A stretch of 22,095 nucleotides of DNA, taken from a virus. Location of the stretch: positions 1 through 22,095 of the IMG/VR virus record IMGVR_UViG_3300025648_000102; one strand, given 5' to 3'. Under the pieces are notes generated by a model. It was given only the letters and a program-made list of their open reading frames with translations. It ran no database searches and was not told the DNA's origin. A program made the position numbers and the translations under genes. This document shows positions 1,272-7,477 of this stretch, in pieces (within the stretch, counting starts at the first letter, position 1; every line of letters begins with the position of its first letter).

Positions 1272-1283
1272 GAAGCTGCCACC
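1272..1283 (+). repeat. AAAGCTGCCACC near copy (GAAGCTGCCACC)
   Basis: Eleven of twelve bases match, in non-coding DNA. Confidence 0.5.
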
Positions 1284-1382
1284 ATCTAGGTGTAGTGGTT
1301 CCTACCTGTTTTTGTATGACAATGAAATCATGGGTCTCTGGGATGTCCCCAATTGGCCTTACATCAATACTTAATACACGTT

Positions 1383-1413
1383 AAGCATCGGCCTAAAAAA
1401 GGTGCTTTTTTTG
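1383..1413 (+). terminator. Terminator-like hairpin with T-run
   Basis: AAGCA (1383-1387) pairs with TGCTT (1403-1407), and CCT with AGG inside it, with a TCGG bulge on the left arm; seven or more T follow (to 1412). It points rightward although the nearest upstream gene is on the minus strand, so it would end a short rightward transcript starting in about 1240-1300 or antisense readthrough. It lies directly before a GGTTTAAGCAACC site. Confidence 0.5.
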
Positions 1414-1420
1414 TTGCTAA

Positions 1421-1433
1421 GGTTTAAGCAACC
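1421..1433 (+). promoter_or_regulatory. GGTTTAAGCAACC motif, copy 1
   Basis: An exact 13-base copy whose ends GGTT and AACC are inverted repeats. The surrounding GTTGCT (1413-1418) also pairs with AGCAAC (1427-1432). It marks the left end of the structured non-coding stretch. Confidence 0.45.
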
Positions 1434-1435
1434 CA

Positions 1436-1900
1436 GTAGTCTTGAATCATCGAGGTAAGACATTCCTCACTGATCTTTGAAATACATAGTTGAGCGGTCA
1501 AGGTTCACTGGAGCCCACCCGCAGGACGGACTAACGATAAAAGGCAAATCGAATAAGCCTACCCACTGAGTCCGAGTCATACGAATCCTGCAAACCTTTA
1601 GAACGAGGGGGTTGAGCGAGTGTAGTCGAGGTCTGGGATAGCAAGGCTTACCCCAACGCCAATAGACGAGCGACAAATTCAGTTCTGGCAGTGAACGGCC
1701 AACACGCAACTATCAGGCTCGGCCTACTGATTCAAAAGTAGGGGGGCCACCCAGCATAGGTAGATTAAACGATACTTCGGGGCATTAAATAATACAAAGC
1801 TGCCACCCGAACCCGTTCACCTTATGGCTGGGCATGGGTAATGCAACCAGTTAGTCCGCATGGACTTGCTGCCTGTCACAAGTCAGGAAAGGCGCAACCA
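1436..1900 (+). ncRNA. Candidate structured RNA (or long 5' leader)
   Basis: Many helices can be drawn on the plus strand. A nested set is formed by 1521-1526 with 1586-1591 (GCAGGA/TCCTGC), 1528-1532 with 1569-1573 (GGACT/AGTCC) and 1542-1545 with 1557-1560 (AGGC/GCCT). Local hairpins include GAGG/CCTC (1452-1468), GGTTC/GAGCC with a four-base loop (1503-1516), GTTC/GAAC (1682-1695), CCTAC/GTAGG (1723-1742), GCAT/ATGC (1832-1844), AGTCC/GGACT (1853-1866) and GACTTG/CAAGTC (1863-1884, exclusive with the previous one). The ends are not defined. It could be a free RNA or the untranslated leader of the gene at 1939. It matches no RNA family I can name; it has no intact tRNA arm and no group I intron core that I can recognise. 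Confidence 0.4.
1796..1807 (+). repeat. AAAGCTGCCACC, exact
   Basis: Exact copy in the non-coding stretch, preceded by C as in three of the other four exact copies. Confidence 0.65.
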
Positions 1901-1928
1901 ATATGCCAATGCAGAGTGAACAACCAAG

Positions 1929-1938
1929 CACACACACA
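1929..1938 (+). promoter_or_regulatory. (CA)5 leader directly before ATG
   Basis: Five CA units abut ATG at 1939, with no Shine-Dalgarno in the 20 bases before it. By analogy with seven other genes here, this tract selects 1939 over the in-frame ATG at 1903. Confidence 0.55.
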
Positions 1939-2256
1939 ATGAGTAACACAAAAAAGAAAGACGTAGCTGCCACCACCGAACTCAAAGATGCGGTTAAAGC
2001 GGTGATCTACGAGATGATCGACAACAATGAGCTAACCCTCACTGAGGTTGACTTCGATAGCGAGTCGTTGGCTGAAGCTATTCGACTGGCATTCACTACG
2101 GACAAGGCTCTCAAGCAAGAGATCATGTCTGCCGTTATCGGTTCTGCCGTGAACGGCTCCACCCCTGCGAAAGCTGCTGAGATCATGCAGAAAGTCGTAG
2201 GCAAGAAAGCTGCCACCAAGACCGAGGGCATCAAACTCAAGGTCAAAGTTCGGTAA
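1939..2256 (+). CDS. Unknown acidic/helical 105-residue protein
   Basis: I do not recognise this protein. It starts with a Lys-rich stretch, then a mostly helical, Glu/Asp-rich middle (KDAVKAVIYEMIDNNELTLT, residues 17-36), and ends in a basic tail (GKKAATKTEGIKLKVKVR). There is no signal peptide, membrane segment or Cys pair. An ATG 12 codons earlier (1903) is in frame, but the CA-repeat leader ends exactly at 1939. Two AAT-coding copies of the 12-base repeat (1963-1974 near match, 2206-2217 exact) lie inside the gene. It is first in a rightward series and a hairpin follows its stop (2272-2299). Confidence 0.7.
   Translation: MSNTKKKDVAATTELKDAVKAVIYEMIDNNELTLTEVDFDSESLAEAIRLAFTTDKALKQEIMSAVIGSAVNGSTPAKAAEIMQKVVGKKAATKTEGIKLKVKVR
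2206..2217 (+). repeat. AAAGCTGCCACC, exact, in coding
   Basis: Exact copy in frame (Lys-Ala-Ala-Thr) in the 105-residue gene; the sole exact copy preceded by G. Confidence 0.65.
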
Positions 2257-2271
2257 CAAGCCACTAACCTG

Positions 2272-2299
2272 CCTCCCGTCTACAAGCTAGACGGTGAGG
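2272..2299 (+). terminator. Hairpin after stop codon, no T-run
   Basis: CCTCCCGTCT (2272-2281) pairs with AGACGGTGAGG (2289-2299) with one bulged base and a loop of about seven. No T-run follows, so it may be a processing or factor-dependent site. A GGTTTAAGCAACC motif and a CA leader come next. Confidence 0.5.
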
Positions 2300-2305
2300 T
2301 GGTAA

Positions 2306-2318
2306 GGTTTAAGCAACC
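2306..2318 (+). promoter_or_regulatory. GGTTTAAGCAACC motif, copy 2
   Basis: An exact copy between the hairpin at 2272-2299 and the (CA)4 leader at 2326-2333, 30 bases before the next ATG. Confidence 0.5.
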
Positions 2319-2325
2319 CCATTCG

Positions 2326-2333
2326 CACACACA
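2326..2333 (+). promoter_or_regulatory. (CA)4 leader before ATG 2336
   Basis: Four CA units end two bases before ATG at 2336; no Shine-Dalgarno is present. Confidence 0.5.
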
Positions 2334-2335
2334 TT

Positions 2336-2638
2336 ATGAACACTACTTCTATCGGTTCCAATCAACGACAAGCCACCTTTCCCGACGGAACAGTGGTTCT
2401 TATCTCTTATGATACTCCGGTTGCTGCCGTCTATAAGGGCAGGGTTTATCGGACATCAGCTTGGTTCTCACCAACGACCACCAAGCACATCAATAAATGG
2501 ATTGCATCTTTTGGAGACAATTCAGTCGAAGAAAAGCCGCAGGACTTCTTCTACCTGCTGCTGGATTTTGGTGCTTCCGGATTCCTTCCGTCTCCCACCA
2601 TCAAAACCATCAAAGCGAAAGCAACCCTAGTTAGTTAA
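2336..2638 (+). CDS. Small phage protein of unknown role, 100 residues
   Basis: A compact soluble protein. Residues 19-55 form a plausible beta-rich core with GTVVLISYDTPVAA and a Thr/Ser/His stretch SPTTTKHINKW (45-55), a pattern that recurs in short uncharacterised phage proteins handling no known substrate. The C-terminal third holds FFYLLLDFGASGF (66-78), hydrophobic but too short and polar at its ends to be a clear membrane helix. It lies between the 105-residue unknown and the AAA+ ATPase, each with its own CA leader, so the genes are adjacent but separately equipped for translation. The gene is probably real; its function is unknown. Confidence 0.7.
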   Translation: MNTTSIGSNQRQATFPDGTVVLISYDTPVAAVYKGRVYRTSAWFSPTTTKHINKWIASFGDNSVEEKPQDFFYLLLDFGASGFLPSPTIKTIKAKATLVS

Positions 2639-2660
2639 TCCATTCCAACCCAACAACAAG

Positions 2661-2672
2661 CACACACACACA
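2661..2672 (+). promoter_or_regulatory. (CA)6 leader before the AAA+ gene
   Basis: Six CA units followed by AC and ATG at 2675. The upstream sequence is A/C-rich with no Shine-Dalgarno. Confidence 0.55.
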
Positions 2673-2674
2673 AC

Positions 2675-3940
2675 ATGAAAACAACAGCTAAACTTAATCC
2701 CGATTCGATGCCCTGCACCGTTGGTCAGGTCAAGGCCATGATCGAAAGTCTCGACGTAGACATCCCAGTCGAAAGCATCGTGAATGCTATCGTTACTGGC
2801 GAACACTCCGAAAAACTAGCTGCCACCGTCGGAGCCAAGGCACAACGCTCAACGGAGCATCTGCTCGATGCAATGCGTCGAGACGTGGTAAATGCCACGA
2901 ACCAGTCACGGGCAGCATTGGAACTGAGTCAGGGAACCGATGCCATCTACAAGGCAACTATGGAGAAGGTCGAGAAAGCGTTGGCAGACAAGTCAACGTC
3001 AGTAACGACGGTCAGGAGGATCAAGGCAGCCCTTGTTTCTCCGACTCCATCGACCGGAGCCAACCCTGTTGAGCAGGCCATGCAACAGTATTGCGAACCT
3101 AAGAACTCAGCTTATCCGGTGCTGGTTATGGGTGATCCTTCTGCTGGCAAGACATACACCACCCGCAAGTGGGGCGAGTCCAAATTCGATCTGTTCATCG
3201 AACAAAGCTGCCACCAAGGCATCGAGGCCCGTGACATTCTCGGAGGTAACATCCTCACGAGTTGCCCTAAGAGCGGTGGCATGATCTCCCGTTGGGTTGA
3301 CGGTCGAGTCACCTATGCGGTGCGTATGGCAGCGGCAGGCAAGTCGGTTCTCCTGCTTCTGGATGAAATCTACCGTGCGCCGCAGCGTGAGATGAATGCC
3401 CTGCTTGGCTTCCTCTCTCCGGTTACAAAACCAGACGGCAGCAAGGTCTACCGTCTCTGCTCGGACAAGCCGATTGACGACGGTCATGGCAACCTCATCC
3501 CAGAGGTTGTCGAATGCCCAGTTGAGAATCTAGCAATCGTTGGAACGACCAATGTCGGAGGTCAGTTCCAGATCGAGTCGCCCGATCCAGCCATGAAGAC
3601 ACGTTGGGTCATGGTCTACGTTCACCTGACTGCTGATGACTTCAAGAGCGTCGTCCTCGGTTACGTCAAGGGTGCTAAGTTCCGTGAGTCGGTCGCCAAT
3701 GAGCTTACACGGTTCTGGACTGAGATGAGCGTCCTCAAGGCAGATGGGTATATCGAGGATTGCCCAACGTACCGCACCATCGAGAGGGCAATTTCGATTG
3801 CCAAATCCGATGACAAGAAAGACATCGGGGCAGCCGTCGAGGAAGGCATCTATTCCTACGTTGGCATCGACCTTAATGGTCGTCCCGAAACTGAGCAGAT
3901 CAACAAAGTCAAATCGGTCATCAAGTCCATCTGGGGCTAA
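2675..3940 (+). CDS. MoxR/CobS-like AAA+ ATPase
   Basis: A 421-residue AAA+ ATPase of the MoxR/CobS type. Walker A GDPSAGKT is at 153-160, Walker B LLLLDE at 226-231, a sensor-1-like TTN at 291-293 and a candidate arginine finger near R310 (AMKTRW). A helical region of about 130 residues comes first and may bind a partner. It is followed 28 bases later by a VWA-domain protein. MoxR ATPases typically act with VWA partners to remodel or insert cofactors into target complexes; phage CobS-like proteins are common but their targets are unknown. No cobalamin genes are nearby, so metal chelation is unlikely. Two 12-base repeat copies lie inside it: one near match in frame (2816-2827) and one exact copy in a different frame (3204-3215, coding QSCHQ). 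Confidence 0.88.
   Translation: MKTTAKLNPDSMPCTVGQVKAMIESLDVDIPVESIVNAIVTGEHSEKLAATVGAKAQRSTEHLLDAMRRDVVNATNQSRAALELSQGTDAIYKATMEKVEKALADKSTSVTTVRRIKAALVSPTPSTGANPVEQAMQQYCEPKNSAYPVLVMGDPSAGKTYTTRKWGESKFDLFIEQSCHQGIEARDILGGNILTSCPKSGGMISRWVDGRVTYAVRMAAAGKSVLLLLDEIYRAPQREMNALLGFLSPVTKPDGSKVYRLCSDKPIDDGHGNLIPEVVECPVENLAIVGTTNVGGQFQIESPDPAMKTRWVMVYVHLTADDFKSVVLGYVKGAKFRESVANELTRFWTEMSVLKADGYIEDCPTYRTIERAISIAKSDDKKDIGAAVEEGIYSYVGIDLNGRPETEQINKVKSVIKSIWG
3204..3215 (+). repeat. AAAGCTGCCACC, exact, out of frame
   Basis: Exact copy in the AAA+ gene, read one base off from the other coding copies (coding QSCHQ), so the DNA or RNA word, not the peptide, is repeated. Confidence 0.7.
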
Positions 3941-3964
3941 GCCGCAACCACCAACACACACACA
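3937..3964 (+). promoter_or_regulatory. CCGCAACCACCAA element plus (CA)5 leader
   Basis: Directly after the AAA+ stop codon come CCGCAACCACCAA and (CA)5 (3955-3964), then ATG at 3968. The same 13 bases recur after the stop codon at 6053-6055. No Shine-Dalgarno is present. Confidence 0.5.
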
Positions 3965-3967
3965 ACT

Positions 3968-5641
3968 ATGTCACTACGACTACCCCGCCGCACCAAGACG
4001 GCAGTGCAAAACCTGCACATCAAGACACGCACCCAGTACGTTTCAGACGGAGGTGCGAATGAGCGGTATCAACTCAACTTCATCCCAACTCTCTCCCGTA
4101 TAACCAAAACGGGTTGCTGGACTCACGACGGTAGTGAGCATTTCATCTACCTCAATGAAGGTGCGTGGGCTCTTCACGATGACCTGAAGACTGGCGACAA
4201 GCTGGGAATCACCAAGGCCATCTATCTCCATGAATGGATGCACTCCATCATGACTGAACGTGACCACCGTGCAATCAGTGATCAGCAGAAGTTGCATGGC
4301 ATCCCATTCAATCTGTGGAATCTGGCTGAGGATGCCAGAATCGAATACGCCTACCGCACCAAATATCGTAAGAAGTTTGGTTGGTTGAAATGGAACGACG
4401 GAAGTTTCGACATCAGCAATCCCAAGTCGATTCTTCTGGCATTCATTCACTGCGAGATTACTGGCACTGGTTACAACGTATCCGCACTTCGTAACCCTAA
4501 GTTGCGTGGTGTGTATTCCGATCCGATGACCCGTGAGTTAGCTAGGAAGATCGGCAGGTTCTATCGTCGGTTTGTTTCAGCAGCCACCACGTTGGACTTG
4601 GTTCCGGTTCTTGTTGATTGGCTCAAGGAGTTTCCTGAGAAGGCTGAGGGTGAGAATCCAGTCGGCAGCGGTGTTCATGGTGGCGATCTGTCCGACTCTA
4701 TGATCCTCGATCCGGAAGGATCTTCCAAGGGACGTGCCAAAAGCCCCTCCGGTGAGGAAAAGGGAGGTAAGGATACCGAGGGTGATGCAAGTCACGGAGC
4801 AGGCAGTGGTGACAGTATCTGTGACCCGAAAGACGGTGAAGAGGTTAATAACTTCGAGCAGGGCAAATACGAACCATCCCATGCTACTCCGTCAGGCCCA
4901 AAGCGTGACGGTGCAAAGGGTGTTGATCGTCGGTCGTTTGAGGAGAAAGACGCTGCACGGATTGCATCCATGCTTAGTTCTGCCTTCCGTTCCAAGATGG
5001 GGGTTGGCAAGCAGAAGTCTTCGTCACCTTCCCGTAGGCTCCGGATGCGTGAGATCGTTTCCGGTGCGCCAGTCAATCCGTACACGGTCAAGCGCAACAA
5101 CAATCGTGGCGTTCCTCACATTTCAATCGTGATGGATTGCTCCGGTTCGATGGGTGGACGGATTCGTAGATCAGCCGACGGCAAGGAATGGATTCGGCAC
5201 GATTCAGAGGGTCGAGTGCTGCTCTACGCTCTTCGTGATCTTGCCAAGACCGGAGTTATTACCGGTAAGGTTTATCTCTCAGCTTGCGGTGGTGCTTTCC
5301 ACACATTCGATCTTGGGAGTGCTACGGCAAAGGATATTGACCAATGCCGTCACAACCATTCGCTGCAAGGTTCGGAAGGATTTGTCCACACGTTCCCCAA
5401 GCACATGGCAGAGATTGCCAAGTCAAAGATTGCTCTGGTCTACACCGATGCCCAGATCACCGATGGCCCGATACCAGTGAAACAACTTCACGAGCATGGG
5501 GTCTACACAATCGGCCTCTATGTCGGAACCACTGACGTTACTGAGTCGATGAAAGAATACGGATTTGATCAACAGATCACCCGTGAGACCGCAACCAAAG
5601 TTGCCGATGTCCTTGCCCGTAGGCTTGCGACCGTTGGCTAA
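3968..5641 (+). CDS. HExxH metallopeptidase-like + VWA domain protein (CobT-like)
   Basis: A 557-residue two-domain protein. The N-terminal part has HEWMH at 88-92, a HExxH zinc motif, and LAEDARIE at 119-126, which could supply the third (Glu) ligand, as in metallopeptidase-like domains that precede VWA folds. Residues 225-330 are a Gly/Ser/Asp/Glu-rich, low-complexity linker. The C-terminal VWA domain starts near 380 and carries the MIDAS motif DCSGS at 390-394. Phage proteins of this shape are often labelled CobT. It directly follows the MoxR-like ATPase, its likely partner: the ATPase would power remodelling while the VWA domain docks to a metal-coordinating target. Whether the zinc site cleaves anything is unknown. 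Start 3968 follows a CA leader. Confidence 0.82.
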   Translation: MSLRLPRRTKTAVQNLHIKTRTQYVSDGGANERYQLNFIPTLSRITKTGCWTHDGSEHFIYLNEGAWALHDDLKTGDKLGITKAIYLHEWMHSIMTERDHRAISDQQKLHGIPFNLWNLAEDARIEYAYRTKYRKKFGWLKWNDGSFDISNPKSILLAFIHCEITGTGYNVSALRNPKLRGVYSDPMTRELARKIGRFYRRFVSAATTLDLVPVLVDWLKEFPEKAEGENPVGSGVHGGDLSDSMILDPEGSSKGRAKSPSGEEKGGKDTEGDASHGAGSGDSICDPKDGEEVNNFEQGKYEPSHATPSGPKRDGAKGVDRRSFEEKDAARIASMLSSAFRSKMGVGKQKSSSPSRRLRMREIVSGAPVNPYTVKRNNNRGVPHISIVMDCSGSMGGRIRRSADGKEWIRHDSEGRVLLYALRDLAKTGVITGKVYLSACGGAFHTFDLGSATAKDIDQCRHNHSLQGSEGFVHTFPKHMAEIAKSKIALVYTDAQITDGPIPVKQLHEHGVYTIGLYVGTTDVTESMKEYGFDQQITRETATKVADVLARRLATVG

Positions 5642-5656
5642 ACAAAAATCCCGATC

Positions 5657-5668
5657 AAAGCTGCCACC
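5657..5668 (+). repeat. AAAGCTGCCACC, exact
   Basis: Exact intergenic copy whose end is one arm of the GAAA-loop hairpin. Confidence 0.65.
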
Positions 5669-5680
5669 CCGAAAGGGGTG
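5657..5680 (+). terminator. GAAA-loop hairpin overlapping the 12-base repeat
   Basis: CACCCC (5665-5670) and GGGGTG (5675-5680) form a perfect six-pair stem closed by GAAA. The left arm is the end of an exact AAAGCTGCCACC copy (5657-5668). It sits 16 bases after the VWA-gene stop; no T-run follows. A GNRA loop is typical of stable RNA hairpins. Confidence 0.55.
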
Positions 5681-5699
5681 CGGCGTTGGTCACAAACAA

Positions 5700-5723
5700 C
5701 ACACACACTAACTCACACACACA
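5700..5723 (+). promoter_or_regulatory. Double CA-repeat leader before ATG 5724
   Basis: Two CA tracts, 5700-5707 and (CA)5 at 5714-5723, abut ATG at 5724, without a Shine-Dalgarno. Confidence 0.55.
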
Positions 5724-5963
5724 ATGAGCGCAGAAGAACTAAAACCTGAAGATGTCCAAGATTGGATCAATCTCATCAAGATAGCGTCAGACCCTACATC
5801 TCCATTTAAGGGGATGGTTGACCTGAATGGCATATTCTCACTGCCTTTGGCTATGCAGCACGAGATTTACAATGGGCTTTCTGATTCTGAGAAAGTCGAT
5901 CTCACCATTGCATACGGCAAGCGTCCTAAAGTTAAACCAACCTTCACGGGTTTAAGCCGATGA
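5724..5963 (+). CDS. Unknown 79-residue protein
   Basis: I do not recognise this protein. It is acidic at its start (SAEELKPEDVQDW) and basic near the end (YGKRPKVKP), with a predicted mostly helical middle. No Cys, signal peptide or membrane segment is present. The CA leader abuts its ATG. Its stop overlaps the start of the next small membrane protein (ATGA at 5960-5963), and the last codons contain the GGTTTAAGCC motif. Its position after the AAA+/VWA pair suggests co-regulation but not a function. Confidence 0.65.
   Translation: MSAEELKPEDVQDWINLIKIASDPTSPFKGMVDLNGIFSLPLAMQHEIYNGLSDSEKVDLTIAYGKRPKVKPTFTGLSR
5949..5962 (+). promoter_or_regulatory. GGTTTAAGCCGATG start-site element
   Basis: GGTTTAAGCC followed by GATG, with the ATG at 5960 starting the 31-residue membrane protein. 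The same 14 bases recur at 11194-11207 and on the minus strand at 16240-16227. Confidence 0.45.
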
Positions 5964-6055
5964 AACCCGTTCTATTTCTTGCCTCAATGGTTCTACAACT
6001 TCTGTTTGTTGAAGCATTCATCGTTGGAATTTTCCTAGCCCTTATTTGGAACTAA
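5960..6055 (+). CDS. 31-residue single-pass membrane protein
   Basis: It starts in an ATGA overlap with the preceding gene. After MKP, nearly all residues up to the final WN are hydrophobic, broken mainly by single Gln and Glu residues (VLQLLFVEAFIVGIFLALIW), giving one transmembrane helix. Very short phage membrane proteins of this kind can be regulators of larger membrane proteins or host-takeover factors, but nothing here says which. It is supported by the overlap, the GGTTTAAGCCGATG element and the composition. Confidence 0.5.
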   Translation: MKPVLFLASMVLQLLFVEAFIVGIFLALIWN

Positions 6056-6074
6056 ACCGCAACCACCAAAACCT

Positions 6075-6470
6075 ATGTTAAAACCAAAATACTCTTGGAC
6101 ACGCATCTTGCGTGGCACAAACGGAAGTCACTCCTTTTGGAGGGATGAGATTTCCGGATTGGTTTCCCTTAAAGATAGCTCCGGATGCACTCCGGACATA
6201 ACGGACGATGGCGTTCTTTGGCTAGAGGATTGGCTTCCTCTAAAGCTGCATCGTGACGGATATGTGTCCATCCCCTTGCGTAGTGAGAGGACGGGACGGC
6301 AAACGTCATCGGTTACGAACTTGTATGCAGGTCTAAGAATCGCTGCAAAGTTCAAGATGGAAATGATCATCGAGGATTGCTTGTGCGATCTCGAAGAGGT
6401 GAGTCACGACGTTGAAACACAGGTATATGACCGCAATGGACATCATGCCATAGGAATCAAATTCAAATGA
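6075..6470 (+). CDS. Unknown 131-residue protein
   Basis: I do not recognise this protein. It is soluble, with a Trp/Ser-rich beginning (SWTRILRGTNGSHSFWRDE) and a possible beta-rich middle; the C-terminal third is acidic then ends in HHAIGIKFK. The leader is C/A-rich and shares CCGCAACCACCAA (6057-6069) with the VWA gene leader. Its stop overlaps the next start (ATGA at 6467-6470), so the three following genes form a tightly packed group. The function is unknown. Confidence 0.65.
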   Translation: MLKPKYSWTRILRGTNGSHSFWRDEISGLVSLKDSSGCTPDITDDGVLWLEDWLPLKLHRDGYVSIPLRSERTGRQTSSVTNLYAGLRIAAKFKMEMIIEDCLCDLEEVSHDVETQVYDRNGHHAIGIKFK

Positions 6471-6652
6471 GAATCAAACTAAACGTAAGCATACCAAACA
6501 CCAACCCGACTTGCGTCATCTGCGGGAAACCCTGCGAAAACAAGTATGGAAACAATCCAGCACCCCTTAGTGCAACCGGACGGTGCTGCAATAAATGCAA
6601 CATGGAAGTTCTAGCTTCCAGAATTATCAACCTAGCCAAGAAATTATCATGA
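6467..6652 (+). CDS. Small zinc-ribbon-like phage protein
   Basis: A 61-residue protein with CVICGKPCENKYGNNPAP (residues 16-33) and CCNKCNMEVL (40-49), a C-x2-C ... C-x2-C arrangement fitting a zinc ribbon. The NNPAP and 'RCC..CN' pattern is widespread in small uncharacterised phage proteins, so the family is familiar though its role is not. It is joined by ATGA overlaps to both neighbours (6467-6470 and 6649-6652), suggesting one mRNA with coupled translation. Confidence 0.75.
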   Translation: MRIKLNVSIPNTNPTCVICGKPCENKYGNNPAPLSATGRCCNKCNMEVLASRIINLAKKLS

Positions 6653-6912
6653 GCGTTAAAACTTGCGAACGATGTGAAGTCCCTTTTGGGAAAGATGGTC
6701 ACTGCCCTGAGTGTGGTCGTGAAAAGCCCGAACGGTGCAGTTGCGGTTCATACTACCCACAGAGAATCGACAGAAGCTGCGGTGCTTATGTCTGTGATTC
6801 ATGCGGCGATCACAAGGGTCTCAGCCTTTGTTACTGCGGATGGTCGAAACATGGAACCGATGGATACCGTGAACTGATCGAAATCGGGGAGACGATTGAC
6901 GAGGATTACTAA
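6649..6912 (+). CDS. Multi-CxxC zinc-binding protein, 87 residues
   Basis: It starts at ATG 6649 within an ATGA overlap; an earlier in-frame ATG (6595) would overlap the previous gene more and is less likely. Cys pairs are C-x2-C at 6-9 and 19-22, a single Cys pair CSC near 29-31, YVCDSCG near 47-53, and CYCGW near 61-65. These fit two zinc ribbons. The C-terminus is acidic (IEIGETIDEDY). Zinc ribbons of this size often bind nucleic acid or RNA polymerase, but no particular family can be named. Confidence 0.7.
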   Translation: MSVKTCERCEVPFGKDGHCPECGREKPERCSCGSYYPQRIDRSCGAYVCDSCGDHKGLSLCYCGWSKHGTDGYRELIEIGETIDEDY

Positions 6913-6915
6913 AGT

Positions 6916-7341
6916 ATGAGCAAAGATTTATTCGATCTCTATACCCTCAATGACAGAGGGGTTGTGAAAATTCTACCCTTCAAAGGTGTGGAGCATCCGA
7001 TGTTTCTGATGATGCAGGCATTGGGTGCTACAACTGGAAAGCATTTGGTTGGTCAAGATGTGGTAGAGGATGAAGTCGGAAACAAATTCCTCATCACCTC
7101 TATATTTGTCGGGTTCCCCAAAAACATGGCAAAAATAGCCGAAGATAATTCGGTTCATCCGGAGTTGTGGGGTACAAAGGTTGTTCCGGTCGAAGTGGAT
7201 AAGGATGGTGAGTTGGCTATCAGTAGCGAAGTCTTTAACTCTGTCCCTGTGCTTTCATTCTATGCCCCGTCGATGGAATACGCTGAGGCTGTTCATCAGG
7301 GTCGTGTTGAAAGGTTCAAGGAGATGGCATCCAAACATTAG
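6916..7341 (+). CDS. Unknown 141-residue soluble protein
   Basis: I do not recognise this protein. It starts three bases after the zinc-binding gene, so it is likely in the same operon, and is the last gene before the strong terminator at 7373-7418. The sequence is balanced in charge, with hydrophobic stretches of normal soluble size and no Cys. HPMFLMMQALGATTGKHLVG (27-46) and NKFLITSIFVGFP are the most conserved-looking parts. No membrane helix is present. Confidence 0.65.
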   Translation: MSKDLFDLYTLNDRGVVKILPFKGVEHPMFLMMQALGATTGKHLVGQDVVEDEVGNKFLITSIFVGFPKNMAKIAEDNSVHPELWGTKVVPVEVDKDGELAISSEVFNSVPVLSFYAPSMEYAEAVHQGRVERFKEMASKH

Positions 7342-7372
7342 AAAAAGATTGTTAGTGTAGTGCGAAATGGGA

Positions 7373-7418
7373 GCAGGAGTTGGAGAGATTAACGTCTCTC
7401 TGACTCCTGCTTTTTTTT
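7373..7418 (+). terminator. Strong rho-independent terminator
   Basis: GCAGGAGT (7373-7380) pairs with ACTCCTGC (7403-7410) and inside it GAGAGA pairs with TCTCTC, with a TTAACG loop, followed by eight T (7411-7418). It closes the rightward 1.9-7.3 kb group. Confidence 0.9.
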
Positions 7419-7465
7419 GCCTTTTTCGCCCCAGTCCGGTGACAGGAAGTGTCGTAGTGCAACTC

Positions 7466-7477
7466 AAAGCTGCCACC
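7466..7477 (+). repeat. AAAGCTGCCACC, exact
   Basis: Exact copy after the terminator at 7373-7418, the right-most one; none is seen from 7.5 kb to the right edge. Confidence 0.65.

Follow-up and report, generated by a model that had tools for sequence, protein, structure and literature searches.

The word AGCTGCCACC, 10 bp long and invariant in all of its copies, occurs eight times on the plus strand and never on the minus strand between positions 1274 and 7477 of the DNA analyzed here, in and around a phage operon for an AAA+ ATPase and a VWA-domain partner protein. Probably it serves as a binding site through which this early gene block is controlled. The interpretation that we favor, tentatively and with slightly less than even confidence, is that the copies are dispersed, asymmetric DNA sites, oriented with transcription, for a phage regulator serving the operon.

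The window, a stretch of 22,095 bases from a virus record, is 100% identical over its length to part of IMGVR_UViG_3300006104_000005 (G001; 40,255 bases). G002 joins both ends of G001, and the phage genome closes at ~40.2 kb. Copies of AGCTGCCACC are confined to 6.2 kb of this genome and the remainder has none. A tyrosine integrase, RecT, a PD-(D/E)XK nuclease, a RusA-like resolvase and an endolysin-like protein are encoded in the window; the large terminase gene lies outside it in the same genome. Because relatives of the terminase in GTDB bacterial genomes are labeled, nearly without exception, Verrucomicrobiota, the host probably belongs to that phylum. The array is absent from all GTDB loci with terminase relatives, and a search of GTDB genomes for relatives of the AAA+ protein returned none. 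Features of the operon region are collected in Table 1. The VWA-domain protein had no match in Pfam or PHROG searches.

Table 1. Features of the operon region in window coordinates, with gene starts called by eye and, for copies of the repeated word, the first position of the 10-mer core
Feature	Coordinates	Strand	Core start	Remarks
Copy 1 (GAAGCTGCCACC)	1272..1283	+	1274	intergenic, non-coding; between divergent operons, upstream of leader
Leader of AAA+/VWA operon	1430..1834	+		long, non-coding; no plausible plus-strand gene
Copy 2, exact	1796..1807	+	1798	non-coding leader; twister-like element 28 nt downstream
Twister-P1-like self-cleaving ribozyme candidate	1835..1922	+		degenerate; 31.7 bits
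Operon gene 1, 105 aa	1939..2256	+		no assigned family
Copy 3 (GTAGCTGCCACC)	1963..1974	+	1965	in gene 1; frame V-A-A-T
Copy 4, exact	2206..2217	+	2208	in gene 1; frame K-A-A-T
MoxR/AAA_5-like AAA+ ATPase	2675..3940	+		
Copy 5 (CTAGCTGCCACC)	2816..2827	+	2818	in AAA+ gene; frame L-A-A-T
Copy 6, exact	3204..3215	+	3206	in AAA+ gene; frame S-C-H
VWA-domain (CobT-like) partner protein	3968..5641	+		DxSGS motif and family alignment
Copy 7, exact	5657..5668	+	5659	non-coding; past VWA stop codon
Terminator-like hairpin	7369..7414	+		strong; closes operon
Copy 8, exact	7466..7477	+	7468	intergenic, non-coding; past terminator-like hairpin
Ribbon-helix-helix (CopG/TacA-like) protein, 95 aa	7827..8114	+		candidate binder; weak family matches
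HTH_17 excisionase/regulator-like protein, 114 aa	8160..8504	+		candidate binder; weak family match

A preliminary description of this DNA had listed eight places for a 12-base repeat, and its positions and mismatch counts (five exact copies, one with one mismatch and two with two) are correct. It had also noted that the minus strand and the DNA to the right of 7.5 kb were free of copies, which holds for the window and for the whole 40,255-base record. The repeat is real and far above chance, but its invariant part is the 10-mer, the leading AA of the 12-mer being variable. A thirteenth base, C, said to be shared by four of the five exact copies, is in fact the base before the 12-mer; the base after it is C in three of five. 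A search for the 12-mer with up to two mismatches gives 10 matches, compared with 1.9 expected in shuffled sequences (maximum 5), and the extra two-mismatch matches in G001 lack the AGCTGCCACC core. Spacing between successive copies, which lie both in and between genes, ranges from 167 to 2453 nt. Among the IMG/VR matches listed for the 14-mer CAAAGCTGCCACCC, the eight copies are found in G001 only, and no other contig has a comparable array.

The word is overrepresented in both classes of DNA. Four non-coding copies are observed where a first-order Markov model predicts 0.003 in 3.1 kb of non-coding DNA, and the four coding copies compare with a mean of 0.19 and a maximum of 2 in 2000 synonymous-codon shuffles, a check proposed in the preliminary description that leaves the word standing. 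The coding copies span two frames (A-A-T and S-C-H) and two genes, as had been noted, and the view that the word is functional at the nucleotide level, beyond selection on the peptide, is borne out by the shuffles, the intergenic copies and conservation in relatives. In the AAA+ gene, conserved Cys–His codons overlap one of the copies, and protein constraint may contribute there. AGCTGCCACC also stands at the top of the list of strand-biased words at this locus.

Three relatives identified by a terminase search (G004, G005 and G006; 72–73% identity, two of the three being fragments) form the basis for comparison. All keep the gene order of the window around the PAPS-reductase gene and the AAA+ and VWA genes, with protein identities to the window of 35–40% for AAA+ and 26–27% for VWA; no DNA similarity to the window is detectable in the operon region. 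Conservation of the exact 12-mer did not hold, as GCTGCCACC is absent from all three, but its core TGCCACC is enriched in the same operon and on the same strand. Mostly in the form TTGCCACC, it is present in 8–11 copies per operon, with ratios of coding to other strand of 11:1, 9:0 and 8:1. Copies within the relatives' genes exceed the expectation from synonymous shuffles (P ≤ 0.001), and 3–6 non-coding copies are observed versus ~0.1 expected from composition. One half of the word, TGCCACC, stays constant, and its 5′ half varies (AAAGC or NNNT). In a three-way alignment with G005 as reference, the 7-mer core is kept at 5/9 sites in G006 and 6/9 in G004 (11/18, the aligned sites not being independent), against a background of 24–28% for all 7-mers and 29% for 7-mers of the same composition. 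At several aligned places the core is unchanged while its flanks have diverged.

Placement is also common to both lineages: (i) a core lies 21 nt (window) or 17 nt (the three relatives) after the VWA stop codon and (ii) a copy in the leader precedes a twister-like ribozyme by ~28 nt (window) or 8 nt (relatives). G005 and G004 have one conserved minus-strand copy, which sits within a minus-strand gene; this is consistent with an orientation of the copies by transcription. More distant VWA phages have no TGCCACC array.

We infer that a protein binds the word, that DNA is its target and that repression is the effect. The regulator would bind its sites as DNA duplex (AAAGCTGCCACC). With sites upstream of the operon, in the leader, between and inside genes and just past the terminator, the bound protein would block initiation and would also act as a roadblock to elongation, so that the operon would be kept off in the prophage or its expression tuned. 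The candidate binders are the HTH_17 protein and the ribbon-helix-helix protein, encoded beside the operon here and in G005. The HTH_17 protein has an orthologue at the same place in G005; the ribbon-helix-helix proteins of the two phages give no BLASTP alignment to each other, and no solved structures informative on either candidate were found. Counting against the operator interpretation are the location of half of the copies (4/8) in genes, the weak family matches of the candidate binders, the lack of an immunity-repressor homologue among the proteins tested, the failure of the sigma-70 model to recognize a promoter, and the possible protein constraint at the Cys–His codons.

The many short, asymmetric, transcription-oriented sites known as stoperators in Cluster A mycobacteriophages (L5, Bxb1, TipsytheTRex) are 13 bp long; 20–30 of them are spread genome-wide, chiefly in the short gaps between genes, and the repressor, whose binding blocks elongation of transcription, is a monomeric, two-domain protein (HTH and stoperator domains) of ~183 residues (PMC9283540, PMC6550527). 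Related Cluster A phages have variant stoperator motifs with part of the sequence in common, which drift with the repressor (PMC6550527). The present array resembles this arrangement in having multiple short asymmetric sites in one orientation in a tailed, temperate phage that encodes an integrase, and the constant TGCCACC with its variable 5′ half recalls motif drift among relatives. However, the conserved core here is 7–10 bp, the 8–11 copies are restricted to one operon rather than spread genome-wide, and half are inside genes. No two-domain repressor was found among the proteins scanned, only the HTH_17 and ribbon-helix-helix proteins, and none of the proteins tested is an immunity-repressor homologue. 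By analogy, the system would appear to work like stoperators yet not to be a member of that family; we do not file it as a stoperator system because the genomic distribution and the intergenic placement differ, and no such repressor turned up among the proteins scanned.

Cox/Xis-type boxes, such as the P2 Cox boxes, are short, asymmetric, one-orientation repeats recognized by small winged-HTH proteins with a second role as transcriptional repressors, and they cluster near promoters or attachment sites. The likeness lies in the short repeats of one orientation and in an HTH_17 protein encoded beside the operon, whereas the word studied here is dispersed over 6 kb and occurs inside genes. Dispersed operators in AAA+/VWA operons do not appear to be unique to the window, because a more distant AAA+/VWA phage (L101, the same as L081) carries eleven AATCCTGTACAGGATT palindromes (≤2 mismatches) over its early operon (L101:1306–8495), 9 of the 11 intergenic (0.05 expected). 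The same phage has many CCCTAGGG palindromes, and both sets look like dispersed operator-like sites, although AATCCTGTACAGGATT is a motif of another kind than that of the window. Copies of GGTGACTGCCACC in G008 were rejected as the same array, being near-palindromic, located around ribbon-helix-helix genes and resembling another operator. Repeats of other types are AGTCTGCGA in L112 and the tandem repeats of L132 and L139.

If confirmed, dispersed operators of this kind would extend stoperator-like or equivalent control beyond actinobacteriophages, to phages of a phylum in which phage regulation is little studied, and would assign the AAA+/VWA module, which is poorly understood, to a specific regulatory circuit together with the self-cleaving ribozymes that recur at it. 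The copies provide exact sites that could be used to pull down the regulator.

The main rival, which we consider possible but unlikely, is that UGCCACC is recognized in the operon transcript by an RNA-binding protein or small RNA acting on translation, stability or antitermination, with the twister-released leader as a potential decoy. The orientation with transcription is compatible with an RNA element, as are the copy directly 5′ of the ribozyme in both lineages, the conservation of the relatives' leader (88% mean column identity versus ~75% over the aligned operon region) and the position of the relatives' post-VWA word within a strong hairpin that shows a single compensatory change. Presentation in a common hairpin or loop is nevertheless ruled out, as the cores are no more unpaired in local folding than 7-mers of the same composition (0.404 versus 0.408, P = 0.98). 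Structural contexts differ among copies, and the part of the word that is presented varies between the hairpins at the intergenic copies. The leader folding z is only −1.3 to −1.5. The complement GGTGGCAGC is found nowhere else in the phage, and pairing with a phage-internal antisense is ruled out by the lack of any complement of AGCTGCCACC in G001. Not all copies fit the operon's RNA, because copy 8 lies 52 nt beyond the terminator-like hairpin and copy 1 lies upstream of the leader; judging from these positions, both are unlikely to be transcribed with it, an argument made less firm by the failure of the sigma-70 model, the only one used, to recognize an operon promoter.

The leader itself, ~400–590 nt of non-coding sequence (L100:1640–2226 in G005), matches no Rfam family and is possibly a structured RNA. 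Scores of the adjacent element against twister-P1 (RF03160) are 31.7 bits in the window, 44.3 bits in G005 and 48.9 bits in G006, all below the gathering cut-off of 67.2 bits; the latter two candidates, with these scores at L064:18155–18225 and L068:1216–1286 in the AAA+/VWA operon leader, contain the twister core nucleotides. Self-cleaving ribozymes recur at the AAA+/VWA module, with twister-like elements in G005, G006 and the window and type II hammerheads in the more distant phages L081 (6818–6881 and 6324–6406) and L109 (5974–6049), immediately ahead of the AAA+ gene or behind the VWA gene. Hammerhead ribozymes are known to flank prophage genes (PMC3088659). The likeness to these hammerhead and twister systems is in self-cleaving ribozymes occupying gaps of operons of this type; the difference is that the repeated word lies outside the ribozyme and also occurs far from it. 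One could imagine a dispersed RNA- or DNA-level code of phage AAA+/VWA operons, in which the ribozyme-freed leader, with its end near one of the copies, would vie with those in the mRNA for a dedicated factor, so that the operon would sense its own transcription, but we regard this as improbable.

Equally doubtful is a role of the copies as replication, partition or recombination sites (iterons, centromere-like boxes or a Chi-like word). The word is direct, asymmetric and multi-copy, and the phage has genes for RecT, a PD-(D/E)XK nuclease and a weak ParB_N-like protein. However, iterons or parS sites would form a compact array at an origin or centromere, and these copies are spread over 6.2 kb inside the genes of one operon, with none elsewhere in the phage genome. 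The opposite-strand copy in the minus-strand gene of G005 and G004 fits orientation by transcription better than a fixed replication strand. A count in the host, suggested in the preliminary description, was made in six Verrucomicrobiota genomes that do not include the true host: with 2–27 copies per strand in 3–9 Mb, they have no consistent strand skew and no excess over a reversed control, which excludes a host-wide word (Chi or uptake sequence) in these genomes. The preliminary description had left binding, packaging, replication and RNA roles open; we favor regulatory sites of one operon over a packaging, replication or host-wide word because of the confinement, the syntenic placement and the lack of enrichment or bias in the six Verrucomicrobiota genomes.

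That codon usage (GCC ACC for Ala–Thr) and composition produced the copies as a by-product, picked from many words, is scarcely credible and, for the 10-mer, refuted. Three of the four coding copies share the A-T frame, and TGCCACC by itself shows only mild enrichment across the genes as a whole (P = 0.06), but none of the 2000 synonymous shuffles reaches the count of the 10-mer, four copies are non-coding, the word heads the strand-biased list, and the relatives have conserved, enriched variants.

Several further sequence features were observed. Runs of CACACACA lie directly upstream of start codons in the window 21 times on the plus strand and 0 times on the minus strand (for example at 1930, 2325, 2660, 5700–5723, 8544, 12234 and 13740), and ACACACACGA precedes starts in G005; these A/C-rich leaders occupy the place where clear Shine–Dalgarno sequences would stand. 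At L017:14977–16519, as in G005, a PAPS-reductase-like protein adjoins a weak ParB_N-like protein directly before the terminase. L112, another phage with a VWA gene, carries AGTCTGC(G/A)A in genes and gaps with a 21 versus 6 strand distribution (L112:7176–19800). A second strand-biased word of the window, GGTTTAAG, occurs nine times on the plus strand (1421, 2306, 5949, 7790, 8142, 11194, 13714, 16163 and 17376) and once on the minus strand; several copies lie shortly before gene starts, and it is possibly a promoter or operator element.
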